Assembly: GCF_003076755.1 (NCBI RefSeq)
Contig: NZ_QDKM01000014.1
Coordinates: 1-42,320, forward strand
Origin: Pararhodobacter oceanensis
GTDB taxonomy: Bacteria > Pseudomonadota > Alphaproteobacteria > Rhodobacterales > Rhodobacteraceae
Direction: 5' to 3'
DNA length: 42,320 bases
In this document: positions 1-23,233 of the stretch, one piece after another
Layout of the letters: the number at the start of each line of letters is the position of its first letter
How positions within the stretch are numbered: the stretch's first letter is position 1
Position numbers and translations under genes: made by a program
Notes under the pieces: generated by a model
What the model was told of the DNA's origin: nothing
What the model saw: only the letters and a program-made list of their open reading frames with translations
The model's database searches: none

Positions 1-127
1 TCGGAAATATGGGTGATGGTAGACTCTGGCATGTGGCATATCCCTTTCTCGGCTGAGAATTGACGGCGTCTGAACACCGCCATGATATGCCGCCCCTCAG
101 GGCATCACCAACTTCCGCGCATTTCTC
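1..127 (-). mobile_element. IS256-family element, partial copy (5' end of transposase and terminus)
   Basis: These 127 bases are identical to 23107-23233, the transposase-start end of the complete IS256-family element at 21858-23233. Positions 1-32 hold the first codons of the transposase on the minus strand (start at 32) and the rest is the promoter side and terminal inverted repeat, ending at 127. The remainder of this copy lies outside the window. Identity stops abruptly at 127, which fixes the IS boundary. The sequence directly after it, 128-136, is the same 9-mer that precedes the left end of the other copy. Confidence 0.93.
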
Positions 128-136
128 GGCTGACGC
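128..136. repeat. 9-bp repeat abutting IS256 copy 1 (target-duplication half)
   Basis: The 9-mer ggctgacgc follows the right end of the left IS copy, and the same 9-mer is found at 21849-21857 just before the left end of the complete copy. IS256-family elements generate 8-9 bp duplications. Here the two halves lie on the inner sides of two different IS copies rather than on both sides of one. Confidence 0.85.
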
Positions 137-458
137 CCGCTCACCCCACCCCTGACAGTTTTCAAATCCTGTTGATCCGCCTGCCATCCTGTCAGGTCCG
201 AGAAAACCGGCAAGCGCCGCCTTTGGCGTCGGTTCCGGTCGAGAATTCCGGTTCCTCCCACGCGCAGGCGCGCGGTTCCCTCCCAAATTCACGCCCTCCA
301 CCCGGTTGTCACGGCCCCGCCAGGCCGCAGGACGGGCTTTGCCCTTACCTGCTCTGCCCTTCGGAATGCATGGGCATTCCAAAGATCAGAACAGGAAGGC
401 CCGCCCATTGGCGGAAAGGGGAAGAGACCCGGCCCGCGTCCTCAAAGGAGGGTCACAA
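137..458. other. non-coding leader upstream of ardC, with a hairpin at 363-380
   Basis: No convincing gene is seen here. Reading frames cross the stretch but lack a ribosome site and family-like composition. A 7-bp inverted repeat (GGAATGC/GCATTCC, 4-base loop) at 363-380 lies about 80 bp upstream of the ardC start and could be an operator or a single-strand promoter-like fold. The second idea is only inference. Confidence 0.4.
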
Positions 459-1343
459 ATGACCGCAGAGAAGTTTGACGTTTATTCCCATGTTACCAAC
501 CAGATCATCGCGCAGATCGAGGCGGGAACGCCGCCCTGGCGCAAGCCGTGGACCGGTGGCGGGGCATCAGTGAGTTTGCCGGAACGGTTCAACGGCGAGG
601 CCTATCGGGGCATCAACATCCTGATGCTTTGGGCCACCGCGATGGCCAAGGACTACAGCTCAGCCCGCTGGATGACGTTCAATCAGGCCAAGCAGCTTGG
701 GGGCCATGTCCGCAAGGGCGAGAAATCCGCCACGGTCGTGAAATACGGCACTGTCGAGCGCGAGGACGAGAGTGGCGAGGAACGCCAGATCCCCTACGCG
801 AAGGCTTACCGCGTGTTTAACGCAGATCAGATCGAAGGTTTGCCCGCTGAATTCTACATCCTGCCCGATCCGCCCCGTGATCTTGGCACCGTCGCTGATC
901 CGGCGTTGGAGGCATTCTTTGCCGCGAGTGGCGCGCAGATCGACAGCACCGAGGAGCCGCGCGCCTATTACAACATCAAGACCGACCGAATCCACATGCC
1001 GCCGATTGCAACCTTCCACAGGGCCGCAGGATATTACGGCACCTTGGCGCATGAGTTGACCCACTGGACAGGGGCGACAAAGCGGCTGGACCGCTTGGGC
1101 CGGTTCAATGATCGCAAGGCATACGCGTTCGAGGAGCTGGTCGCGGAAATTGGCAACTGCATGCTGTGCGCGCAGATCGGGGTGGAGCCTGAATTCGACC
1201 AGAGCGCTGCCTATGTCGAAGGATGGCTGGAAGCGATGAAGGAAGACAGCCGCGCAATATTCCGCGCCGCGTCCGAGGCGCAGAAGGCTGTGGATTATAT
1301 TATGACCCGAACCGCGCAGGCCGATAGGATGGCCGCCGAGTAA
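459..1343 (+). CDS. ardC: ArdC-family anti-restriction protein
   Basis: A 294-residue protein with the two-part ArdC layout. The N-terminal ArdC-like single-strand DNA-binding domain is at about residues 5-120 (PPWRKPW near 25-31, then the 'GxxYRGINILML' stretch). A zincin-like metallopeptidase domain follows, with HELTHW at residues 198-203 and a downstream glutamate (FEELVAE, about 224-230) as probable third zinc ligand. Family members protect incoming plasmid DNA from host restriction, particularly while it is single-stranded. The start at 459 is chosen because AAAGGAGG lies just upstream; a longer frame would begin at 306 without a ribosome site. It is transcribed alone and followed by a strong terminator. 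In the inferred circular plasmid it lies close to the relaxase gene across the IS256 junction, a common place for transfer-protection genes. Confidence 0.9.
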   Translation: MTAEKFDVYSHVTNQIIAQIEAGTPPWRKPWTGGGASVSLPERFNGEAYRGINILMLWATAMAKDYSSARWMTFNQAKQLGGHVRKGEKSATVVKYGTVEREDESGEERQIPYAKAYRVFNADQIEGLPAEFYILPDPPRDLGTVADPALEAFFAASGAQIDSTEEPRAYYNIKTDRIHMPPIATFHRAAGYYGTLAHELTHWTGATKRLDRLGRFNDRKAYAFEELVAEIGNCMLCAQIGVEPEFDQSAAYVEGWLEAMKEDSRAIFRAASEAQKAVDYIMTRTAQADRMAAE

Positions 1344-1368
1344 CAGCCCGCACCGCCGCAATGATCGA

Positions 1369-1397
1369 GGCCCCCGTCAGCAGGCGGGGGGCTTTTT
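1369..1397 (+). terminator. rho-independent terminator after ardC
   Basis: A G/C-rich stem (GCCCCCG paired with CGGGGGGC) is followed by a TTTTT run about 25-50 bp after the ardC stop codon. It would end ardC transcription. Confidence 0.8.
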
Positions 1398-1554
1398 GCG
1401 TTGCGGCGTGACTCTGTGCGGGGCGGTTTCAGGGTGACCTGTCGGCGGGCAACCTGAAGGCCACCCGCCGACAGGCCCGGCGCTTCGCGCGGACGGGCAT
1501 GAAATGCCCGGAAGCGGGGGAATTCCAGATCGGCGAAAACCGTTTAGCGCAAAC
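1398..1554. repeat. two inverted repeats between ardC and kwaB
   Basis: A 12-bp perfect inverted repeat, CCTGTCGGCGGG (1438-1449) with CCCGCCGACAGG (1464-1475), has a 14-base loop. A smaller one, CGGGCAT/ATGCCCG, lies at about 1494-1510. Neither has a T-tract, so they are not simple terminators. They sit between the convergent ardC and kwaBA units and could stall transcription or bind a protein. Confidence 0.5.
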
Positions 1555-2388
1555 CTAGCCGATCGCTTGGACGGAGTTCGCCAAACGCTTCTCTTGGCTA
1601 TGCATTGTTGTGTAGAAGCGCTCTTCGATCCCATACAGAATAAGCTTTAACTGTTGGTCCGTTGACAGCTCGAAGCACTTTCCGTCGGCGGTAAGGGTGA
1701 CACCCTCCTTGCAGTAGTTTTTGATATATTCGACAAGGTTTTCCCGCTGTGCAGCAGGCATTGCCTGAAGCGTATCGGTAACAAGAGCAAGCCGTTTTCG
1801 ATTAGGCTTGGAAACTGAGCTATGATCGTATGGTTTCACTAGCTGAATAAATTCAGAATTGAGGAAAGCTTTCACCTCTGCTTCGGTCGCCTCCTTATAT
1901 AGCTGGTCGATCCCCGGAAATATTGAAGAAACGGAAGCTATGTCCCTGAACAAAAGAACATCGCTGCCTTTAATAAACACGGCATCCGGAACGGATTTTA
2001 CAACTATCCTGTTCGCGCTTTCTTCTAGGTGCGCAGCCTCCCCAAACTGGATAATCTTGCGCGTGATAAAAGATGATGGCGTAACCTTCTGAAAATAAAT
2101 GTCTTTTCCTTGGGTGCTGATTATGCAAGAAATGTCCCGAAATTTACCTTTGCTCAGATCGTCGTAATCCTTGGTGTCGAGATCTCCACTTAGTTCGCCA
2201 ATGTAAAACTCTTGCTCGCTGAATTTTTCGATCTTAAACCATGCATCCTCGTCCAGATTGTGGTCCGGATTGTAGTCCACCATAGATACTGCAGTCGGGT
2301 CGAGCGTTGGATACAGTTTCGTATCAGACAGAAGTTTTTTGTAAGGATTCTTTCTTAGGCGTTTCACACGCACCAGTACCTGATCCAT
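1555..2388 (-). CDS. kwaB: KwaB-like protein (DUF4868), Kiwa anti-phage system
   Basis: A 277-residue soluble protein with no signal peptide or membrane segment. Its size, its general look and its place directly after a small four-helix membrane protein fit KwaB (DUF4868) of Kiwa, in which a membrane sensor KwaA works with the cytosolic DNA-binding effector KwaB against phage replication. The start at 2388 is supported by AAAGGAG a few bases upstream; the longer frame from 2418 runs back into kwaA. The kwaA stop and this start are separated by one base, so the pair is translationally coupled. Base composition is clearly lower in GC than the surrounding plasmid backbone, a sign of recent transfer. 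The family call is from recognition of pattern and context, not from a search. Confidence 0.62.
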   Translation of the reverse strand: MDQVLVRVKRLRKNPYKKLLSDTKLYPTLDPTAVSMVDYNPDHNLDEDAWFKIEKFSEQEFYIGELSGDLDTKDYDDLSKGKFRDISCIISTQGKDIYFQKVTPSSFITRKIIQFGEAAHLEESANRIVVKSVPDAVFIKGSDVLLFRDIASVSSIFPGIDQLYKEATEAEVKAFLNSEFIQLVKPYDHSSVSKPNRKRLALVTDTLQAMPAAQRENLVEYIKNYCKEGVTLTADGKCFELSTDQQLKLILYGIEERFYTTMHSQEKRLANSVQAIG

Positions 2389-2389
2389 T

Positions 2390-2935
2390 CTATCTCCTTT
2401 CAATAAAGGTGTAGTCATTTATCCGTCGTGCCACGGGTATTATAACTGTGCTGGGCTTTTTATACCTCTCGCGGCTTATCAAGAAGATAGTTGTGCCAGA
2501 TTGAGTTTTGACATTGTAGAATTCGTACCCAAAAAGAAGAAAGATAGGATTGAAATAGAGGGCTTGCGAAAGGAAAGTGAAGACAAAAAGAATCCCGTAA
2601 ACGAAGATGAGCGCTTGCCAATCCGAAATGCTCAGCGCGACAAAGAAATAGCCCAGGTAGCTAGGAAGAAAGCTGTTGTTCGCGTGCTCAATGGTTTCTG
2701 TTTCGCCCTCTTTGAACTCATCTTTGCCGAGGAAGCTGGACAAAGCCAAGCTTAACCAGGTCAGCAGAACCGGCGCTATGGTGTAGGCGAGATATGATAG
2801 ATAGTCAGGCATGCCCACCGTTACCGGATGGGGATAAAAATATTTAACTGAAAAGTTGTTCTGAATGCAGAAAATGATGACCAGGAGAGATGTTGCGTTG
2901 AACGTAAGCAATAGCCTGAAGGCAATATTTCCCAT
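2390..2935 (-). CDS. kwaA: KwaA-like membrane protein, Kiwa anti-phage system
   Basis: A 181-residue membrane protein. Hydrophobic segments lie at about residues 5-25, 47-69, 90-104 and 106-137, giving the four-helix layout of KwaA, followed by a cytosolic tail with the pattern 'FGYEFY...G...FLIS...RINDYTFIE'. The start at 2935 has TAAGGAGG upstream with a rather long gap (about 12 bases). The reading frame stays open upstream into an IS1182-like transposase fragment (through position 3361), so a chimeric start is formally possible but the KwaA part has its own ribosome site. It lies one base ahead of kwaB. AT-rich codons set it apart from neighbours. An unrelated membrane partner of a DUF4868 protein is the alternative. 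Confidence 0.6.
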   Translation of the reverse strand: MGNIAFRLLLTFNATSLLVIIFCIQNNFSVKYFYPHPVTVGMPDYLSYLAYTIAPVLLTWLSLALSSFLGKDEFKEGETETIEHANNSFLPSYLGYFFVALSISDWQALIFVYGILFVFTFLSQALYFNPIFLLFGYEFYNVKTQSGTTIFLISRERYKKPSTVIIPVARRINDYTFIERR

Positions 2936-3039
2936 GTTATGCGTCTGCCTCCTTACATAGGTTCTATCAGAAGATGAGGGAATGTCAGGGTAAACAATAC
3001 AAGTGGGCGTCTCACAGCCGCTTTTTCTTTTCCGGTCAG

Positions 3040-3125
3040 AAACGGTGGTAAGCGCCGGTGACAAAAACGTACGGGTTTGGGCCCATACTGCGCTGCGGAG
3101 AACGTCCGGAAGGAGCCGATTCTGT
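3040..3125. repeat. 86-bp dispersed repeat, copy 1
   Basis: This stretch matches 5097-5182 with about three mismatches. Copy 1 separates kwaA from the IS1182-like fragment; copy 2 abuts a small TTGAAAAAC-bounded element. The repeat has no convincing coding function and looks like the scar of a mobile element shared between module boundaries. Confidence 0.85.
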
Positions 3126-3419
3126 GGAATACCGAAGCAATAGCCCACCAGGAGCATCCGGATCAGCAGCTCGGGATCGACTGACGGACGGCCCGTATGG
3201 CTGTAGAAATCGGCGAGATAGCTGCGGATGCTGCTCAAATCCACGAACCGGTCGATAGATCGCAGAAGATGATCTTCAGGGACGTGATCCTCCAGCGAGA
3301 ACTCGTAGAACAGCGCCGGCTGCGCCTCCTGTCGCGGTCCCATCATCGCCGACCCTCCCACCCATCAAGGGAATTGAATCAGCGAGATGCCCCTCGATCA
3401 AGCGAGAGTTTTTCAACGA
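3126..3419 (-). pseudogene. IS1182/IS5-like transposase, N-terminal fragment with terminus
   Basis: The minus-strand frame starting at 3346 encodes about 73 residues typical of the N-terminal DUF772-type domain of IS1182/IS5-related transposases (FYEFSLEDHVPEDHLLRSID, then LLIRMLLVGYCFGI). It then breaks off at about 3128, where the 86-bp repeat begins; the normal continuation (the SERRLCEEV-type stretch and the DDE core) is absent. Upstream of the start, positions 3405-3416 (GAGAGTTTTTCA) resemble the terminal inverted repeat also seen at 5180-5192 and 5322-5336. It is a dead element end that supplies the upstream boundary of the Kiwa module. Confidence 0.75.
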
Positions 3420-3439
3420 AATAAGCCCAAATCCGCTAT

Positions 3440-4369
3440 TCAGGCGGACCTCACTCCGAGTTCAGTCTCTATTTGTTTTCGCGAATAAGGCATCGTGATG
3501 ATGCCGAGGCATCCCACGACCAGTGCCACGCCAACCCATCCAAGGACTGGCAAGCGCTCGCCCACGATGATCACGGCCAGAACTGCGGCAATGACAGGCT
3601 CCAGCAGCGTAATTGTGGTTGCCATGCTAGCTTGCACACGAGCAAGGCCATAGCCGAAACACAGATATCCTAGGAACATTGGCACGGCAGCCATGTACAT
3701 CCCGACTGCCGCATTTTCCCACGACGCAAGGAATGGCCCGCCTGTCGCAACAAGCACTGGCATCAGCAGAAGGCCACCAAGCCCGAAGGTTGCTCCCATC
3801 GCTACGGATGACCTCATGCCTCGGAGCATCATCCTGCGCGCGGTCCAAGAGTATAGGGCGTAGGTTAGCCCCCCGATAAGGCCTAGGGTCACACCAAGAG
3901 GAACGTCGTTCCCGCCGACCACCTCGCTATGCGACGCGCTTTCCGCCACACAGATGAAAGTCATACCAATCAGTCCGACCAAGGCTCCGATGGCCAAACG
4001 TGCCGTCAGACCTGCCCGATCCAAAACATATTCAATAAGAGCTGATAGCAGCGGTGCGGACCCGATGGTGATGACGGTTCCAATCGTCACGCCCGCCAAC
4101 CTCATCGAACCATAGAAGGCCAAAGGATAGGCTGCGACAGCAACCGCCCCGATCACGAGCAGCCTGCGTTGATCCCATAGTACTGCGCGGGAACGGCTGA
4201 TGCCGCGCAGAGCGATCAAGGCTTGCGCGATCCCACCGACCCCCATTGCTGCCGCGCCGATGGCGGCAGGGCTGACATCTGGCGCAAAGGTTGCAGCAGT
4301 CCCGGTTGTGCCCCAGACAACGGCTGCGAACAGGATCGCGACAACGCCCCCGACATATCCTGGCGTCAT
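3440..4369 (-). CDS. EamA/DMT-family exporter
   Basis: A 309-residue inner-membrane protein with ten predicted hydrophobic helices in two EamA repeats (roughly residues 8-138 and 158-292). The pattern is the usual one: an N-terminal 'VWGTTGT' helix, 'ALYSWTARRM' between the halves, and a C-terminal 'LLEPVIAAVLAVIIVGERLPVLGWVGVALV' type helix pair. Family members export amino acids, metabolites or drugs; the substrate cannot be read from sequence. The start lies one base after the stop of the upstream tetR gene (TGA-C-ATG), so the two form a coupled operon and the regulator probably controls this exporter in response to its substrate. Confidence 0.9.
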   Translation of the reverse strand: MTPGYVGGVVAILFAAVVWGTTGTAATFAPDVSPAAIGAAAMGVGGIAQALIALRGISRSRAVLWDQRRLLVIGAVAVAAYPLAFYGSMRLAGVTIGTVITIGSAPLLSALIEYVLDRAGLTARLAIGALVGLIGMTFICVAESASHSEVVGGNDVPLGVTLGLIGGLTYALYSWTARRMMLRGMRSSVAMGATFGLGGLLLMPVLVATGGPFLASWENAAVGMYMAAVPMFLGYLCFGYGLARVQASMATTITLLEPVIAAVLAVIIVGERLPVLGWVGVALVVGCLGIITMPYSRKQIETELGVRSA

Positions 4370-4370
4370 G

Positions 4371-4961
4371 TCAAAGCGCCTTCAGCATGTCGGACACCAT
4401 GGCCCGCGCCGATATGACCCTTGCGCTGTTGCCCTCAAGTCCTGCCCGCGTCATGGCTCCTTCCAGCAAGAAGGCGATGTGTGCTGCAAGGCTAGACACA
4501 CGGTGAAAGTCATCTGGCACAATCTCGGAAAGATGCTGAGCGAGGATGTTTTCTACCTGTTCCTTGTGCCGCCGAACGGCCACGCGACCGGCATCGCCCG
4601 CCTCAAGTTCGGCCGCCGCATTTAACAGCCCGCACCCGCGAAACCCATGCTCATAGGCGTGTTCAGCGTGATCCTGATAGGCGTCAAAGACGGCTAGGAT
4701 GCGTTCTTTCGGATGGGATGCCGTAGCTTCTCGCGCGGCGTAAAGCGCCAGCCATTCCGCATGTCTCGCTTCGATATACTGGTTCACCAGATCAGCCTTC
4801 GAGGCGAAGTTATTGTAGAGGCTCTTTTTCGCCACCCCCGCGCGTTCCACGATGGCGTCTATGCCGGTCCCGCTGATGCCATGATTGTAGAATAGGATCA
4901 TCGCGGCCTGCATGAGGCGGTCGTGAGCACTACCTTTCGGTGTGGCGTCTGGCATGGCCAT
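4371..4961 (-). CDS. TetR/AcrR-family transcriptional regulator
   Basis: A 196-residue regulator. The N-terminal helix-turn-helix is at about residues 13-58 ('AAMILFYNHGISGTGIDAIVERAGVAKKSLYNNFASKADLV', broken here only by description), followed by an all-helical ligand-binding domain. The start at 4961 is preferred because AGGGGAA lies just upstream; a TTG at 4964 is in frame but closer. It is the first gene of a two-gene unit with the EamA exporter, and a 28-bp palindrome 14-41 bp upstream (4975-5002) is the obvious autoregulatory operator. Which ligand lifts repression is unknown. Confidence 0.9.
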   Translation of the reverse strand: MAMPDATPKGSAHDRLMQAAMILFYNHGISGTGIDAIVERAGVAKKSLYNNFASKADLVNQYIEARHAEWLALYAAREATASHPKERILAVFDAYQDHAEHAYEHGFRGCGLLNAAAELEAGDAGRVAVRRHKEQVENILAQHLSEIVPDDFHRVSSLAAHIAFLLEGAMTRAGLEGNSARVISARAMVSDMLKAL

Positions 4962-4974
4962 CAAATTCCCCTAA

Positions 4975-5002
4975 TTTGTAGGTAGATCGGTATACCTACA
5001 AA
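4975..5002. promoter_or_regulatory. palindromic operator for the TetR-exporter operon
   Basis: Two perfect 10-bp arms, TTTGTAGGTA and TACCTACAAA, are separated by 8 bp. The site lies immediately upstream of the tetR start, where a TetR dimer binding over the promoter would repress both genes. Confidence 0.75.
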
Positions 5003-5062
5003 ACGGAGGTGGGCACAAGAGCGAAGTCCGTGGTGCACGAATGTCGCGAATGTCCGCTCAGC

Positions 5063-5106
5063 GGACATAAACCTCCTGCCAGAAGGTGTGCGCCAAAAAC
5101 GGTGGT
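5063..5106. repeat. 44-bp dispersed repeat, copy 1
   Basis: Identical over 44 bases to 8310-8353. It runs directly into the 86-bp repeat copy at 5097. On the minus strand it encodes a 'FWRTPSGRRFMS' string that appears in spurious frames. It marks the boundary between the TetR/EamA and MerR/RsgA modules. Confidence 0.85.
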
Positions 5107-5182
5107 AAGCGCCGGTGATAAAAACGTACGGGTTTGGGCCCATACTGCGCTGCGGAGAACGTCCGGAAGGAGCCCATTCTGT
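5097..5182. repeat. 86-bp dispersed repeat, copy 2
   Basis: Matches 3040-3125 with about three mismatches. Its right edge coincides with the terminal repeat of the 157-bp element at 5180-5336. Confidence 0.85.
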
Positions 5183-5336
5183 TGAAAAACTCTTTGCCGC
5201 AACTGCAAATTTTGGGAATGTGGGAAACCGTTCTCCGAGGAGCGGACTGCGCTCCTTGACGCCTTCAAAATTAGAGTAATTCGAAATTCTGTTCTTCCAA
5301 TCTGACCCCCACCCGCTGTCTGAGGGTTTTTCAACA
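5180..5336. mobile_element. 157-bp MITE-like element
   Basis: It is bounded by inverted repeats TGTTGAAAAACTC (5180-5192) and GAGGGTTTTTCAACA (5322-5336), the same terminal motif seen at the IS1182-like fragment (3405-3416). It contains no gene. The simplest reading is an internally deleted IS1182-like element that could have been mobilised by a full copy. No flanking target duplication is obvious. Confidence 0.5.
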
Positions 5337-5375
5337 CAATCCGCCCAAAGCGGACCGGATCGGCAGCGGTCGGAG

Positions 5376-6452
5376 TTATCGCTTTCGATCCGATTTTGCC
5401 TTCATTGCGCTGCGGACGAGCTTGCCGAAGGCGCGGTCCTTTTCGCGGCGTTCCGCGAGGCTGGCAGAGTTGAAAGCCTCCTCGGCTTGGAGCTTGCGCC
5501 AGCGGGCGAGCCGTTCAGGGTCGAGGCTGTCGTCTTCGATGGCGGCCAAGATGGCGCAGCCCGGCTCGGTCTCATGCCGACAGTCGGCGAAGCGACAGCG
5601 AGCGGCCAGCGCCTCGATATCCTCGAACACGTCGGCGATGCCGGTCGCGGCGTCGGTCAGTTGAAGCTCGCGCATGCCGGGCGTGTCGAGGACGAGGCAG
5701 CCGCCGGTGGTGGCGTGCAGTTCGCGTCGGGTCGTGGTGTGCCGGCCCCTCGCATCGTCGTTACGGATGCCCTGGGTGGCGATGTCTTGCGTTCCAAGGA
5801 GTGCGTTGGTGAGGGTCGACTTTCCGACCCCGGAGGAGCCGAGGAAGACGATCGTCCGTCCCGATTTGCACCAGCTGGCCAGCGCCTTCGCCGGCTCTTC
5901 GCCACGGGCGTCGAGCGCCACGACTGGGACCCGCTCCGACACCTTCTGTGCCTCTTCGACATAGGGCGCGGGGTCTTCGGCGAGGTCCGCCTTGGTCAGC
6001 AAGATCACCGGCTCGATGCCAGCCTCGAAGGCCATTGCGACGTAGCGCTCCAGTCGCGCCACGTTGAAATCCTGGTTGCAGGAGGTGACGACGAAGACGG
6101 TGTCGATGTTCGCCGCGATCAGCTGCACCTCTCGGCCCGTGCCCGGCGCGCGGCGCTTGATCAGGCTCTTGCGCTCCAGCACGCGGCTCGACCGTGGCCG
6201 TGCGCGGTTGAGTAGCAGCCAGTCGCCCACGGTTGCGTCGGGCCCCGGCGGGATCGTCTCGTCGATGCCGTCGCCCGCCACCTGTAAGCCGCTGCGATGC
6301 ACGGCGACCACGCGCACAGGGGGCGTCGCGGTCAGGGCGTCAGTGTCGATCTGGCTTGCGAAGGTCGGGCCCCAGCCTAAGCGCTCCAGCGCTGTGGGTT
6401 CGCGGCGCGCCGGAGTGCCACCCGGCATGAAGGCAGAAAAATCGCGGATCAT
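5376..6452 (-). CDS. rsgA: ribosome small subunit-dependent GTPase (RsgA/YjeQ)
   Basis: A 358-residue circularly permuted GTPase. The N-terminal OB-fold region (about 45-100) is followed by the permuted motifs: G4 TKAD at 153-156, G1 GSSGVGKS at 205-212, the switch region DDARGRHTTT near 222-231, and G3 DTPG at 246-249. A C-terminal zinc knuckle has Cys276, Cys281, His283 and Cys289. RsgA releases maturation factors from the 30S subunit and acts in ribosome assembly or hibernation. Here it is the last gene of a three-gene operon on plasmid DNA, starting 4 bp after a GNAT gene. It is probably an extra, horizontally acquired paralogue rather than the housekeeping copy. Confidence 0.93.
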   Translation of the reverse strand: MIRDFSAFMPGGTPARREPTALERLGWGPTFASQIDTDALTATPPVRVVAVHRSGLQVAGDGIDETIPPGPDATVGDWLLLNRARPRSSRVLERKSLIKRRAPGTGREVQLIAANIDTVFVVTSCNQDFNVARLERYVAMAFEAGIEPVILLTKADLAEDPAPYVEEAQKVSERVPVVALDARGEEPAKALASWCKSGRTIVFLGSSGVGKSTLTNALLGTQDIATQGIRNDDARGRHTTTRRELHATTGGCLVLDTPGMRELQLTDAATGIADVFEDIEALAARCRFADCRHETEPGCAILAAIEDDSLDPERLARWRKLQAEEAFNSASLAERREKDRAFGKLVRSAMKAKSDRKR

Positions 6453-6456
6453 CGGC

Positions 6457-6996
6457 CTACCAAAGCGCCGGATCGTCGAACGCGGCGACGCAGTGCGCCG
6501 GCCCGCTGAGGGGCGTCAGCGGCGCGCCGGTCAGGGACTGGGCGATCCAGCCCTGCGGCTGGCCGAGCGGCTGTGGCGCGGGAACGACGGTCTCCAAGAC
6601 GGGCCTGAACCCAGCCCGGCCATAGAAGGCCGGGTCGCCATATGTCACGGCGATGTCTACGCCCTCCTGCCGGAGCGCGTCGAGACCATGGGCGATCAGC
6701 CGTTGCCCGATACCCTTGCCCTGATGCGCCGTGGCGACCGCCACGGGGGCCATTAGGAAGACCGTGCGCGGATCGCCCGTGTAGGTGAGGCGGGTGAAGA
6801 AGATGCCACCGAGAAGCGCGCCGTCCTCCCAAGCGGTGAAGACGCGCAGATCCTCGGTCGACGTCTCTAAGATCAGGCGGCGCGCGAGGGCGCCGATCAA
6901 CGCGCCTTCCTCCGCGCCCTCCAAGGCTGTGAAGGCGGCCGCGAAGATCTCCACAATTGCTTTGGCGTGGGTGGTGTAATCTGTTGAATAGTTCAT
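6457..6996 (-). CDS. GNAT-family N-acetyltransferase
   Basis: A 179-residue acetyltransferase. The acetyl-CoA-binding motif A is clear: 'LMAPVAVATAHQGKGIGQRLIAHGL' (described here in parts, around residues 82-106), followed by 'GDPAFYGRAGFRPV', typical of YhbS-like GNATs. The start at 6996 has AGAGAGG upstream; a start at 7029 would overlap the preceding gene. It lies between the MerR-methyltransferase gene and rsgA, all on the same strand with short gaps, so it is most likely part of one operon. The substrate is unknown. Confidence 0.88.
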   Translation of the reverse strand: MNYSTDYTTHAKAIVEIFAAAFTALEGAEEGALIGALARRLILETSTEDLRVFTAWEDGALLGGIFFTRLTYTGDPRTVFLMAPVAVATAHQGKGIGQRLIAHGLDALRQEGVDIAVTYGDPAFYGRAGFRPVLETVVPAPQPLGQPQGWIAQSLTGAPLTPLSGPAHCVAAFDDPALW

Positions 6997-7025
6997 GTCT
7001 TGATCCTCTCTGGTGCCGGGCTGGG

Positions 7026-8195: not shown

Positions 8196-8241
8196 CCGCC
8201 GCCGCCTTGTTCACTCACACCGATTCTCGACCGTCAAGAAC

Positions 8242-8272: not shown

Positions 8273-8309
8273 GTTTGGTGACGCTGAAAGTCGGCTTCGT
8301 CCGCACACC

Positions 8310-8353: not shown

Positions 8354-8422
8354 TTTTGGAACAGTGAGAATGCCCTTTTGGGGCCACACCGATACTTGTA
8401 GCACAGCAATCAAATTGCACCT

Positions 8423-9538: not shown

Positions 9539-9548
9539 ACACTGAGGC

Positions 9549-15534: not shown

Positions 15535-15558
15535 TGCTCGATCCTGCTAGTTTTATGT

Positions 15559-15648: not shown

Positions 15649-16680
15649 TGGCCTCCCGCGTTTCTCAAACCACTTCCGGCAAAACCCGACAAAAGCTCGA
15701 TCAGCATTGCGAGGGGGCTCTACGCACCAGCTGCGCCATTCCTGTTCAAGAAAACGTACATCCCATCCAGGAGCAGCATGGCGCGCTTCTTCGTAGGTAT
15801 CGGACTGCAAAGGCGGAATGCTGCCCTCTACGATCGAAGTAGGTGACATCGTGCCACGATTGGTGAAAACCACCATGTCGGCTTCATCCTCGAAGGTGAC
15901 GTGGTAGTCCGGCAAGTGGTCATGCTCTACAAGCTGCCGGATCATCTGCCGGAAGCGCTTCTGAGGGCTTTGAGAACCAGTCTTGAGAAGCAGTTTAGCC
16001 AGTGTGATGCGCCAGTATTTCTGTTGGCCACAGTGTTTACGAGCAATTTCATACACCCGCCGTTCAATGGGCTTGCGCAGACGGAAGTAGTCCTTATGCA
16101 GAGTCAGAACTTCTTCGTTGCGTATCGCGTTAAAGACCCAATCCGACAGCTTCACCTCACACCAGAGCAGACGACCATCGAGACCATGCTTGCGGCGGAT
16201 TGAGGAAGCGTCGATCAGGCCGAACCCATCGACCTGTTCTTCGTCCCCGGTCACAATGTTCGTCCTGATACGGGTTCCTTCAAGACGGTCCAGGGCATCG
16301 AGAAGGGACTGATACTCTCGGCCACTTGTACCGCGATTTGTGAAGATAAGCAGCTCTCTGGAATTGATCCGAACACGGGGCGAAACTGGAAGGCCCTCTT
16401 TCAGTTTCGCCATGATCTGGCTAATGCAGTAGATCAAAATATCTTTGTCGTAGATCGTTGCGAGACCCTTCACACTAGGCGTGATCTGCAGCCACTTATT
16501 GCCATTCTCGTATCGCTTGATCGTCGTTTCCGGCTTCTTTGAAAGCGAGTAGAACGGATGCTCCATATGTTGCATCACGTCCTTCAACACAGCGTCAGCC
16601 ACATCGCAGATGAAGAGGTCATGCTGCGGGTGACGATCCGGGAGGAGCGGGGCGAGGGCGTTCGTGTTATCAGTTACCAT
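15646..16680 (-). CDS. repA: plasmid replication initiator RepA (RPA family)
   Basis: A 344-residue initiator of the alphaproteobacterial 'replication initiator protein A' type. Recognisable stretches include 'FYSLSKKPETTIKRYENG', 'WLQITPSVKGLATIYDKDILIY' (in pieces) and 'FTNRGTSGREYQSLLDALDRLEGTRI', which form the first winged-helix domain, and 'YFRLRKPIERRVYEIARKHCG', which leads into the second. RepA binds iterons to melt the origin. The start at 16680 lies inside an iteron: the first one (16661-16678) encodes residues 2-7, so initiator binding would cover its own start codon. It is the upstream neighbour of parA on the same strand. Confidence 0.92.
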   Translation of the reverse strand: MVTDNTNALAPLLPDRHPQHDLFICDVADAVLKDVMQHMEHPFYSLSKKPETTIKRYENGNKWLQITPSVKGLATIYDKDILIYCISQIMAKLKEGLPVSPRVRINSRELLIFTNRGTSGREYQSLLDALDRLEGTRIRTNIVTGDEEQVDGFGLIDASSIRRKHGLDGRLLWCEVKLSDWVFNAIRNEEVLTLHKDYFRLRKPIERRVYEIARKHCGQQKYWRITLAKLLLKTGSQSPQKRFRQMIRQLVEHDHLPDYHVTFEDEADMVVFTNRGTMSPTSIVEGSIPPLQSDTYEEARHAAPGWDVRFLEQEWRSWCVEPPRNADRAFVGFCRKWFEKRGRP

Positions 16681-16778
16681 GGGCCCACATTCGTGGTTTT
16701 AGTTACCACAGTCAAGATTCGTGTTATCAGTTACCCAAAGCAGGATTTCAGTTACCAAGATTCGTGTTATCAGTTACC
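16661..16778. repeat. iteron array, probable replication origin (oriV)
   Basis: Three perfect copies of the 18-mer TTCGTGTTATCAGTTACC lie at 16661-16678, 16718-16735 and 16761-16778. Two variants lie at 16690-16707 and about 16740-16756. Start-to-start spacing is 29, 28, about 21 and 22 bp. The array directly precedes repA and overlaps its first codons. It is followed by an AT-rich stretch (16779-16870) that could be the melting region. Confidence 0.85.
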
Positions 16779-16905
16779 GAGGATTAGAAGAAGTCATTAA
16801 ATTTCAAACGACTAAGAGTAATCTTCTCACCCGTAACACAGATTCTAACACATATATAACACCCAGCCTGTCAAGTTGAGACAGTCACTGACAGCACTTC
16901 ACCCA
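16779..16905. other. AT-rich stretch beside the iterons
   Basis: This short AT-rich segment contains 'acacatatataacac'. It has no gene. It lies between the iterons and a plasmid membrane-protein gene and fits a DNA-unwinding element of the origin. Confidence 0.4.
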
Positions 16906-17454
16906 TCACCTCTGATAGAACACACACGCATCAACACCCGTGGTTGTCGTCGTCCAGGACGCTCCAAGAACAGCGCATGTGGCCGCGTTGTTGGCCAAGA
17001 AACGAGGAAGCGTCACCGTCAGCACCAAAGCCAGAACCACTGCACCCAGACCAAACCAGGGCAGGCGGCTTTTGAGGCGCTCCGCTTTCTGTTCGCGTTC
17101 GAACACCTCTCGATAGGCTTTGGACCTGTCATCTTCAGATTTGGCCAAGGCCACGATGGTTTTTTCTGTCTGGACGCCAAGGTGTCTGACAATCTCGGTC
17201 ATCGCGTCTGCGGTTGCCCCAAGGTGGCTGTTGAGGGTCTGACCCAGAAGATCCCCGTAATTTTTCGGATTGGTCTGGTCACGTGCGGCGAAGGCCGCGA
17301 TCCGCGCTTCCGTCGCAACCTTGATCTGCTTGTCCGCCACGGCGGTCAGATCGTCGATCCTGTCGGACATGCTGGCGACAGCCGTTGCCATCAGATCGAG
17401 CGTTTCGCGCAGATCATCGTCGGAGAGAGCAGGGGGGTCGGGTTGGTCTGGCAT
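16906..17454 (-). CDS. DUF6118-like plasmid protein with one membrane helix
   Basis: A 182-residue protein. Residues 10-60 are acidic and helical, 60-130 look like a coiled coil with many Ala, Lys and Glu, and one hydrophobic helix spans about 131-152 ('LPWFGLGAVVLALVLTVTLP'). A short C-terminal tail with two Cys follows. It lies 18 bp after traG in the same orientation. Proteins of this make-up (DUF6118) are commonly found beside traG on alphaproteobacterial mobilizable plasmids, but their role in transfer is not established. Confidence 0.65.
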   Translation of the reverse strand: MPDQPDPPALSDDDLRETLDLMATAVASMSDRIDDLTAVADKQIKVATEARIAAFAARDQTNPKNYGDLLGQTLNSHLGATADAMTEIVRHLGVQTEKTIVALAKSEDDRSKAYREVFEREQKAERLKSRLPWFGLGAVVLALVLTVTLPRFLANNAATCAVLGASWTTTTTGVDACVFYQR

Positions 17455-17472
17455 CGGGAGGCGTCCTTCGGA

Positions 17473-19146
17473 TTACTGGTCCTGCGGGACGAACAGCCCC
17501 TTGAACTCGGGATCGGTGTAGTAGCGCAGCTTTTGGGCCACGGCGGTGGCTTGCCCCTGCACGCGCAGGAGCTGGTTTTCCGGGCGGAGCTGCATGATTT
17601 CATCTGGGGTCAGCAGATCGCGGCCCGTGAGGTTGTTGCTGAAGCTGGGGCCGTCACCGGGCTTGAAGCTGTCGGTTTGGAACCCGGCAGTTTCCTGACC
17701 CATCATCTGGCTCAACCACTTGGCCGTCTCGAAGTCATTGACCCCGAAGACCTGCTGCACCCCGGCATTGGCAATGAAGGTGCCCGCGCGTTCGCCGTAG
17801 AGGTCCTTGAGCTGGCTCATATCCTGTAGGATCGGCCAGAGCTGTAGCCCATAGCCCGCCATCAGCCCCATGGCGCGCTCCACGGCCTCCAGGCGGCCCA
17901 GGGCGGCAAACTCGTCCAGGAGGAACAGCGTGGGCGTCTTAAGGCGCTGTATGCCCCCCTGAGCGCCTGCAGGGTCGCTCTGGGGCCTCACGGACGCTTC
18001 TGCGTCCCGTGCGATGTCCTGGAGGGCCTGAGAGACCAGAAGGCGCAGCCAGCGGCTGTAGGCGTCCATCCGGTTCGGTGGCAGCACCAGAAACACCGAA
18101 GCGATCCGGTGGCGCAGATCGGAGAAGTGGAAATCCGACTGCGAAAGAACCCTGGCAATACGCGGGCTGTCCAGGAAATGCGTGTGGCGCTGCGCGTTCG
18201 ACAGCACCGAGGCGGCTTCGCGATCCGCCTTGCCGAGGAAGCGGTTGGCGGCGCGGGCAATCAGCCCGCCCGCCGCATCGCTGTCCTGCATCAGCTCCAG
18301 CAGCGCGCGCAGCTTTTCCGGGGGCAGGGCGAGATATTCCCGGACGGTGGCAAGCGTCCGGCGGTTGCGGTCCTCGTGGCAGACGCAGAACATGATCAGC
18401 CCGCCGAGGATGGCCTTGGCCTCCTCGTTCCAGTGTGCTTCCGTCACCTGTCCCGGCGGGTCCATGACCAGCGCCTCTGTCAGGGAGGCCGCATCCTCGC
18501 CCAGATCGAGGCTGTCCGGTGCCAGCCGGTCGAGCGGGTTGTAGGCAGCAGACGGCATCCCGGAGACCTCAAACGGATCGAGGACGTGGACCGTTCCGAA
18601 CCGCCGCCGGGCTTCCCCGGCGATACGGGCGTTCTCGCCCTTGGGGTCGATGACCAGCACCGAGCGTTCCGCCGCCAGCAAGTTCGGGATGACGGTGCCG
18701 ACACCTTTCCCGGCCCGTGTCGGGGCGAGGGTGATCAGATGGGCGGGGCCGTCATAGTGCAGCAGTCGTCCGGTGTGCGGGTTGCGCCCGATCAGAAGGC
18801 CGTCTTCCCGCTGGAGCTTCTTCAGCTCCTTGCGGTTGGCGAAGCGGGCGGAGCCGTGGCTGTCGCCGGTCAGCCCGAAGAAGGCATCGGCCCCGGAGGC
18901 CATGCGCCAGTACTGGAACCCGAAGACAACGCCTATGAGCATGAACGGCCCAAAGACCAGCCACTGCCATGCGCTTTCGCCGGGCGGTTGGTCGAAGAAG
19001 GCGAAGACGAACGGCGTGGCGACAAGTGCCCCGATCATCGCGCCGAACAGGACAGCGCCGATCATCCAGCCCAGTAGGATGGGCGTGAAGATCAATCGAC
19101 CGAAGAGCCGGAACAGCCCTCCGAAGACAAGCATCACGCCCCGCAT
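17473..19146 (-). CDS. traG: TraG/VirD4-type coupling protein
   Basis: A 557-residue type IV coupling protein. Two hydrophobic segments (about 14-50 and 62-80) anchor it in the inner membrane. Walker A is 'APTRAGKGVG' at 141-150, followed by 'VLVIDPKGENARIAGEARR', and Walker B is 'LFLLDEFAALG' further on. It brings the relaxase-DNA complex to a type IV secretion channel. The start codon overlaps the traD stop (TGATG). No VirB-type channel genes occur in the window, so transfer needs a helper element. It is somewhat shorter than Ti-type TraG, as usual for mobilizable plasmids. Confidence 0.93.
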   Translation of the reverse strand: MRGVMLVFGGLFRLFGRLIFTPILLGWMIGAVLFGAMIGALVATPFVFAFFDQPPGESAWQWLVFGPFMLIGVVFGFQYWRMASGADAFFGLTGDSHGSARFANRKELKKLQREDGLLIGRNPHTGRLLHYDGPAHLITLAPTRAGKGVGTVIPNLLAAERSVLVIDPKGENARIAGEARRRFGTVHVLDPFEVSGMPSAAYNPLDRLAPDSLDLGEDAASLTEALVMDPPGQVTEAHWNEEAKAILGGLIMFCVCHEDRNRRTLATVREYLALPPEKLRALLELMQDSDAAGGLIARAANRFLGKADREAASVLSNAQRHTHFLDSPRIARVLSQSDFHFSDLRHRIASVFLVLPPNRMDAYSRWLRLLVSQALQDIARDAEASVRPQSDPAGAQGGIQRLKTPTLFLLDEFAALGRLEAVERAMGLMAGYGLQLWPILQDMSQLKDLYGERAGTFIANAGVQQVFGVNDFETAKWLSQMMGQETAGFQTDSFKPGDGPSFSNNLTGRDLLTPDEIMQLRPENQLLRVQGQATAVAQKLRYYTDPEFKGLFVPQDQ

Positions 19147-19457
19147 CAGGACGATGTGTCCGGATCAGAGCTGGATGGGGCAGGGGAGGGCATGTTCCAG
19201 TCGGCGAAGGCCTTGCGATCCTGTTCGCGGGGCAGGTTGCGGATCAGCCGGTCGAGCATCGCGGCAGCCCCGGAATCCCGTTCCGCCAGATCGAGGAGCG
19301 CACCGCCCAGGATCACCTTACGCCGCGTGTCGAGTTTGCGCTGTCTGGTACTTTCCCTGTTCTTCAGCGCTTGGAGCCGGGCCTTGGCCTGGGCATATCG
19401 TTTCTCGGCGCGCTCAAGTTCTGTTTCTGCCAAATCTCTACCCTCGCCACCAAACAT
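19146..19457 (-). CDS. traD: TraD-like conjugal transfer accessory protein
   Basis: A 103-residue, highly charged protein. 'TRQRKLDTRRKVILGGALLDLAERDS' (in parts, about residues 36-62) is the signature of the small TraD/MobC-like proteins encoded ahead of traG in rhizobial and rhodobacterial plasmids. These bind near oriT and help the relaxase. Its N-terminal half is a predicted coiled coil. The stop codon overlaps the traG start. The oriT core lies about 65 bp upstream of its start codon. Confidence 0.78.
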   Translation of the reverse strand: MFGGEGRDLAETELERAEKRYAQAKARLQALKNRESTRQRKLDTRRKVILGGALLDLAERDSGAAAMLDRLIRNLPREQDRKAFADWNMPSPAPSSSDPDTSS

Positions 19458-19522
19458 TCTTGTGGTTGAAGTTGTTCTTGCCAGATCAACCGATAGCGCT
19501 TACCCGTAGGCCTGTAAAGGAC

Positions 19523-19539
19523 AAGGGCGCACTTATGCA
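19523..19539 (-). other. oriT core (MOBQ/RSF1010-Ti type nick region)
   Basis: On the minus strand the sequence reads TGCATAAGTGCGCCCTT, which contains the core of Q-type nick sites (TAAGTGCGCCCT, cleaved near GCG/CCCT in RSF1010-like plasmids). It lies between divergent traD-traG and the MOBQ-type relaxase gene, the same layout as the traCDG-oriT-traA region of Ti plasmids. The usual inverted repeat next to the nick is not obvious. Confidence 0.72.
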
Positions 19540-20076
19540 AACTCTTCACCTGCGGTTCCGAGATTTGCGTGCGATCTCTCTGGAGCAAAGCCCCGGCCGA
19601 TGGCCATCCCCTTCGCTGCGTGCCGCCGCGACATGGAAGGGCGCGCTGCCCCTTCCAAACCATCCCAGCCCAACCTCAGCGGTTGGATCGCGTCCCGCCC
19701 GATGCCCCACGGTGGGGGTCGGTCTGCCGCTGGCGTCTCCCTTGCGGGAGGTTCGTGTCGGTGCGAACGCGCACCCCGGCAAACCTGACGGTGCCGACAC
19801 GAACCGGGTTTGCCCCCAGCAAACCGCCAGTGATCTGTCCCCATATCCCGCCCCCCATGAGGCTGGGGATCTGGGGGCAGATCACTGGCAAGCCCGCGCG
19901 TCGGAGAGCTGTTGGCTCGCCTCAAGCGGGCTGTCTTTTCCAGTCGTACCGCGCCGGGGCAGGGCGCGATCCATCGGGGAAAAGACGGCTCACCCGGTGG
20001 CCCATGTCGGGGCCTGGGCCGGGGTCAGCAGCGGCGCGCGTCGGTATCGTCTGCATCAGAGGGCGGGGTAGTCAGC
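19540..20076. repeat. mobA leader with a cluster of long inverted repeats
   Basis: No gene is supported here. Inverted repeats are dense: GGTTCGTGTCGG (19750-19761) with CCGACACGAACC (19794-19805); GGCAAACC (19778-19785) with GGTTTGCC (19807-19814); GCCAGTGATCTG (19826-19837) with CAGATCACTGGC (19878-19889). The first two overlap, so the corresponding hairpins exclude each other. The region precedes the relaxase gene and adjoins oriT; a role in relaxosome assembly or control of mobA is inferred only. Confidence 0.6.
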
Positions 20077-21363
20077 ATGGCCAGCTACCACCTCTCCGTA
20101 AAGACGATCAAACGCAGCGCCGGGCGCTCCGCCACGGCGGCGGCAGCCTACCGTGTCGGGGAGCGCATTGAGTGCCAGCGCGAAGGCCGTGTCCACGATT
20201 ACACCCGCAAGCAGGGCATCGAGGAGACCTTCATACTGACCCCGAAGGACGCCCCCGACTGGGCCTCGGACCGGTCCCGCCTCTGGAACGAGGCCGAGGC
20301 CAGCGAGACTCGCCGCAACTCCGTCACCGCCCGCGAATGGGAGCTGGCCCTGCCCTCCGAGATCAGCGCCGAGGCCCGGTCGCAGATCACCCGCGACTTT
20401 GCCCAGGAGCTGGTCAGCCGCTACGGTGTGGCCGTCGATGTTGCGATCCATGCGCCCCACCGCGAAGGCGATCAGCGCAACCACCATGCCCACGTCCTGA
20501 CTTCCACCCGCAAGCTGGAAGCCGGGGGCTTCACCACCAAAACCCGCGTGCTTGATTCCGCCAAGACCGGCGGTGTCGAGATCGAGCAGATGCGCGGCCT
20601 CTGGGCCGAGTTGCAGAACCGCGCGCTGGAGCGTGTCGGGGAGGTCGAGCGCGTCGATCACCGGTCGCTTGAGAAGCAGCGCGAGACGGCGCTGGATCGT
20701 GGTGACAAGCTGACGGCCGAGGAGCTGGATCGCGACCCCGAGCTGAAGCTGGGGCCAGCGGCTAATTCCATGGAGCGGCGCGCGAAAGCTGTGGCTGAGC
20801 GTCAGGGCCGGGAATACGTCCCCGTTACCGAGCGCGGGGCCGTGGTCCATGCCGCCCGCCAGGCCCGCGCCGCTTTCCGCGAAATGCGTGAGCGGCTGGA
20901 TATTGCGCGGGAGACTTACGGCATCGAGCGCGAGGCGGGGCAGGGCCGCGTCTCTGCCGGTCTGGCCGCACTCAGGGCCGCGACTGCGAAAGATCGCGAC
21001 GGACGCACATCGGACGATATCCGGGAGCGGTTGTCGCAGGTTGTGGGCCGGTCGCGGGACCAGGACGACACGCCGAAGCCGGAAGGCCGCAATTATGCGC
21101 GCGAGCGCCTGAAGGCGATCATGGAGAAAGACGCCGGTCGCGATGGCCAAGCGGCGGTTCACAAGCTGGACGGGTACAGCGAAAATGACCTTGGCGAAGA
21201 CACAAGCCGCGAGGCGCGCAAGCCGTCCGTCAACGAGCGGCTGAAGGATGTGCTGAACAAACCGCGCGAGCGGCTAGAAATTGAGGACGAGCGCGACCAG
21301 GAGAAGGATCAGGAGGTCGAGAAGGATAGGGACATCGACCGTGATCCAGGTCTCAGTCACTGA
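20077..21363 (+). CDS. mobA: MobA/MobL-family relaxase (MOBQ)
   Basis: A 428-residue relaxase. 'ASYHLSVKTIKRSAGRSATAAAAYR' opens the fold with the likely catalytic tyrosine near residue 25, and 'HREGDQRNHHAHVLTSTR' supplies the histidine triad (HUH-type) for the metal site. These are hallmarks of MOBQ (MobA/MobL, TraA N-terminal) relaxases. It lacks the helicase part of full TraA. The C-terminal 200 residues are highly charged and helical. The start at 20077 has GGGCGGGG upstream; an in-frame extension to 19912 would read through the inverted-repeat leader. It is divergent from traD-traG across the oriT core. Confidence 0.9.
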   Translation: MASYHLSVKTIKRSAGRSATAAAAYRVGERIECQREGRVHDYTRKQGIEETFILTPKDAPDWASDRSRLWNEAEASETRRNSVTAREWELALPSEISAEARSQITRDFAQELVSRYGVAVDVAIHAPHREGDQRNHHAHVLTSTRKLEAGGFTTKTRVLDSAKTGGVEIEQMRGLWAELQNRALERVGEVERVDHRSLEKQRETALDRGDKLTAEELDRDPELKLGPAANSMERRAKAVAERQGREYVPVTERGAVVHAARQARAAFREMRERLDIARETYGIEREAGQGRVSAGLAALRAATAKDRDGRTSDDIRERLSQVVGRSRDQDDTPKPEGRNYARERLKAIMEKDAGRDGQAAVHKLDGYSENDLGEDTSREARKPSVNERLKDVLNKPRERLEIEDERDQEKDQEVEKDRDIDRDPGLSH

Positions 21364-21691
21364 CGAGGCGATGAGAGGTCGTTTCCCCATTCTTCATGGG
21401 AATGCTCGCCTGAGAGAACCCGACACCAACAAGGAATGAAATCACGCCGGTTGCCGTCTTGAATTCGCGCACCCTGATCGCATTCTGCGTCACTCGCGTT
21501 CTGGCAGTGACAAGGATTTTCTCCTGCCCATCACTCCCAACCGTCCGCATGATCCACAGGCCGTACCAGCTTGGTCCCTTGCGTTCAGGATCGGCTTTGC
21601 ACAGCACTTCGACCGTGTGTCCCTCCTGAGCAAGTCCCCGAAGGCCTTGTTCGGTGGTGACGTTTAGTTCGAGGTCAATCGTCTGGTTCAT
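21353..21691 (-). CDS. hypothetical protein convergent with mobA
   Basis: A 112-residue protein, start taken at 21691 ('MNQTIDLELNVTTEQGLRGL'); a longer frame reaches 21751. It overlaps the 3' end of mobA by 11 bp tail to tail. The sequence looks like a small beta-rich domain ('GPSWYGLWIMRTVGSDGQEKILVTARTR'). No family is recognised. The position and length are compatible with a conserved plasmid protein, but no clear ribosome site is seen at either start. Confidence 0.5.
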   Translation of the reverse strand: MNQTIDLELNVTTEQGLRGLAQEGHTVEVLCKADPERKGPSWYGLWIMRTVGSDGQEKILVTARTRVTQNAIRVREFKTATGVISFLVGVGFSQASIPMKNGETTSHRLVSD

Positions 21692-21857
21692 CGCGCATAC
21701 CAACAGAAACAATGATGGTCGTCTTGTGCCTGAATCTAACGAAGGCATCAATCGTATATTATCGATGTAGATATGGCTCGATAGAGTTCAGTGATCCCGG
21801 CAGTGCGCCGGTATCGCTTTGAGCGATAGACAGGACAGGTGATCGACGGGCTGACGC
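21692..21857. other. short non-coding gap ending in the 9-bp IS flank
   Basis: No gene is seen. It contains small dyads such as ATCGATGT/atatcgat-like segments near 21750-21765. Positions 21849-21857 are the 9-mer shared with 128-136. Confidence 0.6.
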
Positions 21858-23233
21858 GAGATATCGGCAAAAGTTGGTGACGCTTGATCAGGCGGCAGCT
21901 TGAAGTTGGCGGAGCCCGTCGCGGAACTCAACCCCTTGGATGATCTCTGGCAGGCGGTTTCGACCGTCGAGTTTGCGCCATTTCTTCTGCGCCGAGATCA
22001 TCAGCTTGAAAGCCATGGCCAGGCCGGTCTGTCGGCTGAGGCAGCCCTTGGTGCGTTTCGTGCGATGCCGGACGGTCGCGAACGTGCTCTCGATCGGGTT
22101 TGACGTCCGGATGTGTTTCCAGTGTTCCGCAGGGAAGTCGTAGAATGTCAGCAACGCCTCGCGGTCCTTGACCAGCTTGGCAACCGCCTTGTCCCATTTC
22201 ACACCGTAGGTTTCGATGAAGAAGTCGAAGGCCGCGTTCGCCTTGGCCTTTGTCTCGGCCTGCCAGATGTCGTGCAAATGACCCTTGGCCTTGGCTTGGA
22301 TGGATTTCGGCATCGCGTTCAGCACGTTCATGGTTTTATGCACCCAGCAGCGCTGCTCCTTGGTGGTGGCGAACACCTCGCGCAGTGCCGCCCAGAACCC
22401 CAAGGCACCGTCACCGATGGCCAGCTTTGGTTCCTGTGTCAGGCCGCGGCGTTTGAGATCGAGCAGCAGCTCGCGCCAGCTTTGGGTGCTTTCTCGGAAG
22501 CCGTCGGTCATCGCCAACAGCTCCTTGCGGCCATATTCATCCGCCCCGACAATCACCAGAACGCATTGTTTTTCCTCAGCCATGCGTGGCTTGAAGTAAA
22601 CCCCGTCGGCCCAGATGTAGAGAAAGCGCCGATTGCCGAGGTCACGTTTCTGCCAAGCCTCGTAGTCTGCCCACCAGTCAGCCTTCAGCCGGGAGACGGT
22701 CTTGGCGGACAGGCCCTTGGCGTTCGGACCCAGCAGCGCTCCCAGAGCTTCGGTGAAATCGCCGGTGGACACGCCCTTGAGATACAGCCAGGGCAGCAGC
22801 TCCTCGACCGATTTCGCCTTGCGCAGATACCGCGGTAGAATGCTTGGCGTGAAGGTGATCTTGTCTTCGCCAGCACCCCGATCCCGCACGCGCGGCACCT
22901 TCACGGGCACCGGGCCAATGCCGGTCATTACCTCGCGTTCTGGGAGGTGACCATGGCGGACCAGGCGCGCGCGCCCGTCCTCAAGCATGTCCTTGGAAAA
23001 CGCGGCCATGAGATTGGCCAGCTCCGCATGGATCGCCTGTTCGATCAGCTTGCGCGCTCCATCGCGCAGGACGTCAGTGAATGGGTCGGAGCCAAATCCT
23101 GATGGATCGGAAATATGGGTGATGGTAGACTCTGGCATGTGGCATATCCCTTTCTCGGCTGAGAATTGACGGCGTCTGAACACCGCCATGATATGCCGCC
23201 CCTCAGGGCATCACCAACTTCCGCGCATTTCTC
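21858..23233 (-). mobile_element. complete IS256-family insertion sequence
   Basis: A 1376-bp element bounded by imperfect inverted repeats. The left end starts GAGATATCGGCAAAAGTTGG and the right end, read inward, starts GAGAAATGCGCGGAAGTTGG. The right 127 bp are identical to 1-127. The left flank is ggctgacgc and the right flank is tgggcaaa, so this copy is not bordered by a direct duplication of its own. Its right side interrupts a helicase gene. Confidence 0.92.
21888..23138 (-). CDS. IS256-family transposase
   Basis: A 416-residue DDE transposase of the Mutator/IS256 type. The catalytic Asp residues are in 'WADGVYFKPRM' and 'IGDGALGFWAALREVF', and the Glu is in 'SNPIESTFATVRHRT'. The HWKHIRTSNPIES stretch and the C-terminal 'TKGCLSRQTGLAMAFKL' are family hallmarks. 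The start at 23138 is chosen because AAAGGG precedes it. The enzyme uses copy-out/paste-in transposition via a circular intermediate and gives 8-9 bp duplications. It appears intact and could still be active. Confidence 0.95.
   Translation of the reverse strand: MPESTITHISDPSGFGSDPFTDVLRDGARKLIEQAIHAELANLMAAFSKDMLEDGRARLVRHGHLPEREVMTGIGPVPVKVPRVRDRGAGEDKITFTPSILPRYLRKAKSVEELLPWLYLKGVSTGDFTEALGALLGPNAKGLSAKTVSRLKADWWADYEAWQKRDLGNRRFLYIWADGVYFKPRMAEEKQCVLVIVGADEYGRKELLAMTDGFRESTQSWRELLLDLKRRGLTQEPKLAIGDGALGFWAALREVFATTKEQRCWVHKTMNVLNAMPKSIQAKAKGHLHDIWQAETKAKANAAFDFFIETYGVKWDKAVAKLVKDREALLTFYDFPAEHWKHIRTSNPIESTFATVRHRTKRTKGCLSRQTGLAMAFKLMISAQKKWRKLDGRNRLPEIIQGVEFRDGLRQLQAAA

Follow-up and report, generated by a model that had tools for sequence, protein, structure and literature searches.

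The 42,320-bp window analysed here, which is the whole of contig C14 in the 32-contig draft genome of Pararhodobacter oceanensis (base 1 being the contig start), joins in one sequence the genes of a mobilizable plasmid (128-21857), an insertion sequence (IS) of the IS256 family (21858-23233, - strand) and a SNF2-type helicase gene that is cut by the IS. The initial annotation had taken this arrangement for a plasmid captured in the host replicon as a cointegrate. Our analysis suggests another history: one ordinary IS256-family insertion into a free plasmid and another into a chromosomal helicase gene, the two replicons probably having been joined by the assembler. Of the original interpretation, the plasmid closing at the IS site and the IS copy in the helicase gene are retained; the fusion of the two is not established, since the flanks that were taken to indicate it are equally expected without it.

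Two IS copies with separate target duplications

The limits of the IS were placed correctly because its relatives match bases 1-1376 end to end: among the 17 PLSDB plasmid records that match the element, this holds for eight of the ten listed rows (82.8-87.7% identity), the other two matching bases 1-1374 and 1-1367. The family assignment also stands, with the transposase open reading frame (ORF; 21888-23189, - strand) scoring 315.9 bits against a cut-off of 150 for the IS256 transposase model NF033543 and matching Pfam Transposase_mut as well. Terminal inverted repeats are present but imperfect (GAGATATCGGCAAAAGTTGGTGACGC / GAGAAATGCGCGGAAGTTGGTGATGC). The element shares its family, size and short target duplication with IS256-family elements of Rhodobacterales, such as those on Paracoccus and Sulfitobacter plasmids, but is a sequence variant of its own. 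A further member of the family, ISPaes3, is reported to be 1393 bp long with an 8-bp target duplication (PMC3281130).

One complete copy of the IS and two 127-bp ends, that is, two copies, were found in the genome. Positions 1-127 of the window are identical (100%, same strand) to the right 127 bp of the complete copy, as the initial annotation had noticed. The genome gave one further match, to the left 127 bp of the element, with which contig C26 ends (4208-4334 of 4334); this search scored 40 of 72 candidates, and N-masked contigs are unable to show matches. Each of the two copies is flanked by its own clean 9-bp duplication, GGCTGACGC in the plasmid and TGGGCAAAG in the helicase gene. By flank comparison, the plasmid duplication lies at 21849-21857, on the left side of the insertion site, and at 128-136, on its right side, the latter also being seen in the empty-site alignment. 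The helicase duplication lies at 23234-23242, on the right side of that insertion, with its left copy at C26:4199-4207. The identical inner 9-mers and the different outer right flank reported earlier are thereby reproduced. The chance of a match for a given 9-mer is about 4e-6 by arithmetic, and none of 500 random 60-mers from the window recurred in the sequence pool; the repeats themselves are confirmed as real rather than fortuitous.

Both insertion sites are also found in uninterrupted form. When 500 bases from each side were joined with a single copy of the duplication and then aligned, the empty plasmid site matched four closed plasmids (L045-L048, 95.6-96.6% identity) without a break over about 1 kb, and the empty helicase site likewise matched a genome of the same genus (G002, 82.4%) over about 1 kb. 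In the three printed alignments (pP75_g, S. alexandrii and G002), the 50 columns on either side of the junction are free of gaps. A second locus of G002 aligned to the helicase site at 70.7%, with 36 gap positions. The helicase parts from C26 and from the window lie side by side in G002, with an 8-base overlap at the site, and the plasmid site is the spacer between a small gene and an ardC-like gene. An origin as an IS-bounded composite transposon of about 24 kb was rejected, given that each of the two IS copies has a duplication of its own and that the plasmid sequence closes on itself at the insertion site.

Contig ends and the overlap length of the assembly

The 127-bp length of the repeat at the window start stems from the k-mer overlap of the assembler, not from the element, because exactly this overlap is shared by 39 of the 48 readable contig ends. 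For this count, the ends of all 32 contigs were compared with the other ends, the window and C26, after the exclusion of 16 of the 64 ends that read N. Besides the 39 ends at exactly 127 bp, the longest exact terminal match was 119 bp at one end, and the remaining eight showed no terminal match of at least 30 bp to the other ends, the window or C26; those eight may match the interiors of other contigs, which lie outside the comparison, or the eight contigs with N-masked ends. A single uniform overlap length is a hallmark of de Bruijn assembly, here with k = 127. The assembler was presumably SPAdes, the usual program with this setting, a name that we assume from the k value. Accordingly, positions 1-127 represent a contig-end overlap consisting of the second IS copy's right 127 bp, and a truncated IS at the left end of the window was rejected.

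At the opposite end of the contig, positions 42194-42320 are 127 bp common to contig C18 and adjoin a truncated short-chain dehydrogenase ORF; similar stretches are annotated as transposase on two Sulfitobacter plasmids, and this is probably another break at a mobile element. Relatives of the IS appear as many short stretches in two other drafts, 14 in G003 (about 95-98 bp, four of them starting at contig base 1) and 15 in G015 (about 87-120 bp), so that a pattern of contig breaks like that of C14 seems to be present there.

What the sequence can tell about a fusion

We scripted two models, one consisting of a free 23,106-bp circle and a chromosome with its own IS, and the other of a chromosome interrupted by IS, plasmid and IS in succession. 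The word sets of the two models are identical at lengths of 128, 250, 600 and 1377, and differ by two words each way at 1378; the models are therefore inseparable by any read shorter than 1378 bases. The same property bears on the prediction, made in the initial annotation, that tgggcaaa-like bases and then the missing 3' part of the helicase gene should be found beyond the left end of the window. On C26, we indeed found the 3' part, then TGGGCAAAG (tgggcaaag), after which the contig stops 127 bp into the IS. However, because the free and the cointegrate models share all words up to 1377, the check passes under both and does not discriminate between them. Nor are the flanks specific: the outer ones are both TGGGCAAAG and the inner ones both GGCTGACGC, and two separate insertions give the same result. 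The path of the assembler across the 1376-bp repeat is the sole evidence for fusion.

In the reading that we favour, one IS copy would have inserted into a free circular mobilizable RepA/MobQ plasmid, duplicating GGCTGACGC, and a second copy into the chromosomal helicase gene, there duplicating TGGGCAAAG and leaving the gene divided between C14 and C26. In an assembly with k = 127, the common 1376-bp IS would turn the plasmid into a loop hanging on the chromosomal path, and the assembler may have walked from the chromosome through the IS into the plasmid and halted once it met the IS again, so that 127-bp stubs remained at C14:1-127 and C26:4208-4334. We infer here both the free state of the plasmid and the behaviour of the assembler. 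A loop of this form, with IS, plasmid and IS on a chromosomal path, arises in the assembly graph under either model, and it is one that assemblers may walk through. According to a short-read benchmark, plasmids cannot be assembled completely where replicons have repeats in common (PMC5695206).

A plasmid of a known kind

The plasmid, closed at the IS site, would comprise 21,721 bp without the IS and 23,106 bp with it. Where the initial annotation had proposed a full plasmid with an origin, partition, mobilization and cargo genes, we confirmed RepA, ParA, the coupling protein, the relaxase and cargo genes. The replication initiator RepA (RPA family; 15646-16680, - strand) is up to 99% identical in other genomes, and a ParA-like partition ATPase is encoded at 14866-15534 (- strand). 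The VirD4/TraG-like coupling protein (17473-19146, - strand) matches Pfam T4SS-DNA_transf above the cut-off, with NCBIfam matches below theirs, and a MobQ relaxase is encoded at 19912-21363 (+ strand; the limits of this ORF are mechanical). The presence of the initiator, the partition gene and the relaxase within 128-21857, together with the unbroken alignment of the joined flanks to closed plasmids, supports the view that this stretch is a complete mobilizable plasmid closing on itself at the IS site. As predicted from what is known of these families, such a plasmid would replicate via RepA, segregate via ParA, and be mobilized via MobQ and the coupling protein by the mating machinery of a helper.

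To judge from its backbone, the plasmid belongs to a known kind, the RepA/MobQ plasmids of Rhodobacterales. PLSDB contains 87 records that match the plasmid part, the best covering 43% of the query, and the four relatives that were opened are circular, with sizes of 15.1, 15.8, 31.9 and 39.4 kb. In all four, repA and the genes for the coupling protein, a mobilization protein, mobQ and the zincin follow in a like order, and ParA lies within the displayed stretch in three. Small mobilizable plasmids of this kind, for example NZ_CP136700, NZ_CP018079 and pP75_g (NZ_CP010680), have a backbone order like that of the present one and a spacer at the IS site that is 95.6-96.6% identical, whereas the present plasmid differs in its cargo (type II restriction-modification, cation efflux, a GTPase and an EamA transporter) and in carrying one IS256-family insertion. 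For 80 of the 99 relatives of RepA in GTDB genomes, the contigs had a median length of 17.7 kb and a maximum of 150.9 kb, with five exceeding 60 kb; the full-length relatives in the first 23 rows (at least 94% identity) came from contigs of at most 53.8 kb, and a partial relative with 99% identity (L156) from one of 3.1 kb. Within the genus, the backbone (14600-21857) was found only in the genome under study among 18 genomes; in seven others, matches were confined to short stretches of 44-195 bp. One exact plasmid-IS junction was also sought in viral contigs, a collection that is not one of plasmids, and gave no match. For seven RepA-type plasmids of 4.6-47.7 kb, published copy numbers are 2.6-12.5 (PMC9025767), and CP085149, listed there with 2.6 copies, is among the PLSDB relatives of the plasmid part.

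Free plasmid or cointegrate

Several observations weigh against a free plasmid. C14 runs from the plasmid through the whole 1376-bp IS into the chromosome, and C14 and C26 as written contain one 1378-base word that is missing from the free model but none that is missing from the cointegrate model; assemblers usually cross an unresolved repeat only with support such as long fragments. The search for a free plasmid of about 23 kb with the same gene order, suggested in the initial annotation, gave four closed relatives with a like backbone order, but none of the 87 matching PLSDB records covers 80% of the query, so that a free plasmid with the present cargo was not found among them. The small draft contigs that carry RepA relatives are a weak sign of a free state, since an integrated copy flanked by IS would also break out of an assembly. 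The G+C content (58.0% in the plasmid, 56.2% in the right part of the window and 55.6% in C26) gives no clear separation of these parts.

The strongest competitor is a true cointegrate, in which homologous (RecA-type) recombination between the IS copies of the plasmid and the helicase gene would have placed the plasmid in the chromosome between two IS copies. The joining of plasmid, complete IS and helicase gene in one contig fits such a structure, as does the position of TGGGCAAAG outside and GGCTGACGC inside on both sides, although identical flanks are expected without fusion as well. Linkage across the IS copies is one-sided, being joined by the assembler in C14 and broken at C26; had reads or read pairs been able to span the IS, a join from C26 to position 128 would be expected as well. 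Known plasmids of this kind are free and small, and a multicopy replicon within a chromosome would generally be expected to be costly. There is a precedent in Sulfitobacter pontiacus CB2047, for which the integration of a 280-kb plasmid is reported, attributed to recombination between repeated rrn operons and confirmed by Nanopore reads (PMC13386836). The mechanism would be the same if the present fusion were real, but that case is confirmed by long reads and involves 280 kb and rrn repeats, whereas the present one is known from contigs and involves a smaller plasmid and an IS repeat. On balance, we regard the cointegrate as unlikely, though deserving of serious consideration, and we view with the same doubt the reading that a whole mobilizable RepA/MobQ plasmid, its replication and partition genes apparently intact, resides in the chromosome between two IS256-family copies and may alternate between an integrated and a free form.

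Coexistence of both states, with the plasmid integrating and excising through its IS copies and the sequenced DNA being a mixture, is compatible with the sequence, given that two direct IS repeats could recombine either way; it would require reads of both kinds and appears quite improbable. Least probable of all, and hardly credible, is replicative cointegration, whereby the plasmid IS, in transposing into the helicase gene, would have fused the replicons and been duplicated. It yields the same outer and inner 9-mers, but the arguments against fusion apply to it as well, and elements of the IS256 family probably transpose via excised circles (copy-out paste-in) and not via cointegrates.

Plasmid cargo, the interrupted helicase and the right part of the window

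Beyond its backbone, the plasmid carries a gene for an ArdC-like antirestriction protein or zincin metallopeptidase at 306-1343 (+ strand; Pfam ArdcN and MPTase-PolyVal, with mechanical ORF limits). Cargo genes at 3440-9337 (- strand) encode an EamA transporter, a TetR regulator, an RsgA-like GTPase, a MerR/methyltransferase and cation efflux, and a type II restriction enzyme and a C5 cytosine methyltransferase are encoded at 12447-14580 (- strand). The plasmid-borne GTPase (5376-6452) belongs to a type usually associated with ribosome maturation. Next to the restriction-modification genes, two adjacent genes at 10085-12396 encode a putative O-methyltransferase (Methyltransf_35) and a HATPase_c_3 ATPase. 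Two overlapping - strand ORFs at 1555-3361, one with the N-terminus of an IS1182-type transposase that scores below the model cut-off, are probably a broken or frameshifted IS1182-family element.

The 5' part of the helicase gene lies at 23203-25425 (- strand; the listed ORF ends inside the IS) and matches positions 163-629 of the 948-position HKD+Snf2 model PDLC01075, the 3' part on C26 matching positions 634-947. The best defence model for the helicase is HKD+Snf2, C3a139, and an uninterrupted homologue is encoded on contig C5 of G002. On C26, where the locus occupies 130-4281, the helicase gene is followed by those for a DUF4391 protein, a type III-like N6/N4 methyltransferase and an AlbA_2/Schlafen-type protein. 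Because the IS broke the helicase gene beside the DUF4391 and type III-like methyltransferase genes, the locus, of a restriction or defence-like type, has probably lost its activity in the present strain.

The right part of the window is taken as chromosomal because it contains the tryptophanyl-tRNA synthetase gene trpS (39011-40135, - strand), the homologue of which is located 3.57 Mb into contig C1 of a two-contig genome of the same genus (G017); on the same grounds, the possibility that the right part is another plasmid was rejected. The chromosomal place of the helicase gene rests on its sharing one contig with trpS. Two findings count against this placement. Of the 12 PLSDB records that match the right part, the best, which covers 11%, is a 70-kb Neotabrizicola plasmid with a helicase homologue (77%), and in G002 the homologues of the helicase gene and trpS are on separate contigs (C5 and C3), so that the locus is not syntenic there.

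Implications

If the fusion is real, it would be a small-plasmid counterpart of the integration already confirmed in Sulfitobacter and, as such, of a known kind. Under the reading that we favour, the case illustrates how plasmid capture can be mimicked by a draft contig: where one IS is common to a plasmid and a chromosome, short reads turn the plasmid into a loop on the chromosomal path. Scans for integrated plasmids should first examine contig ends for overlaps of k-mer length.

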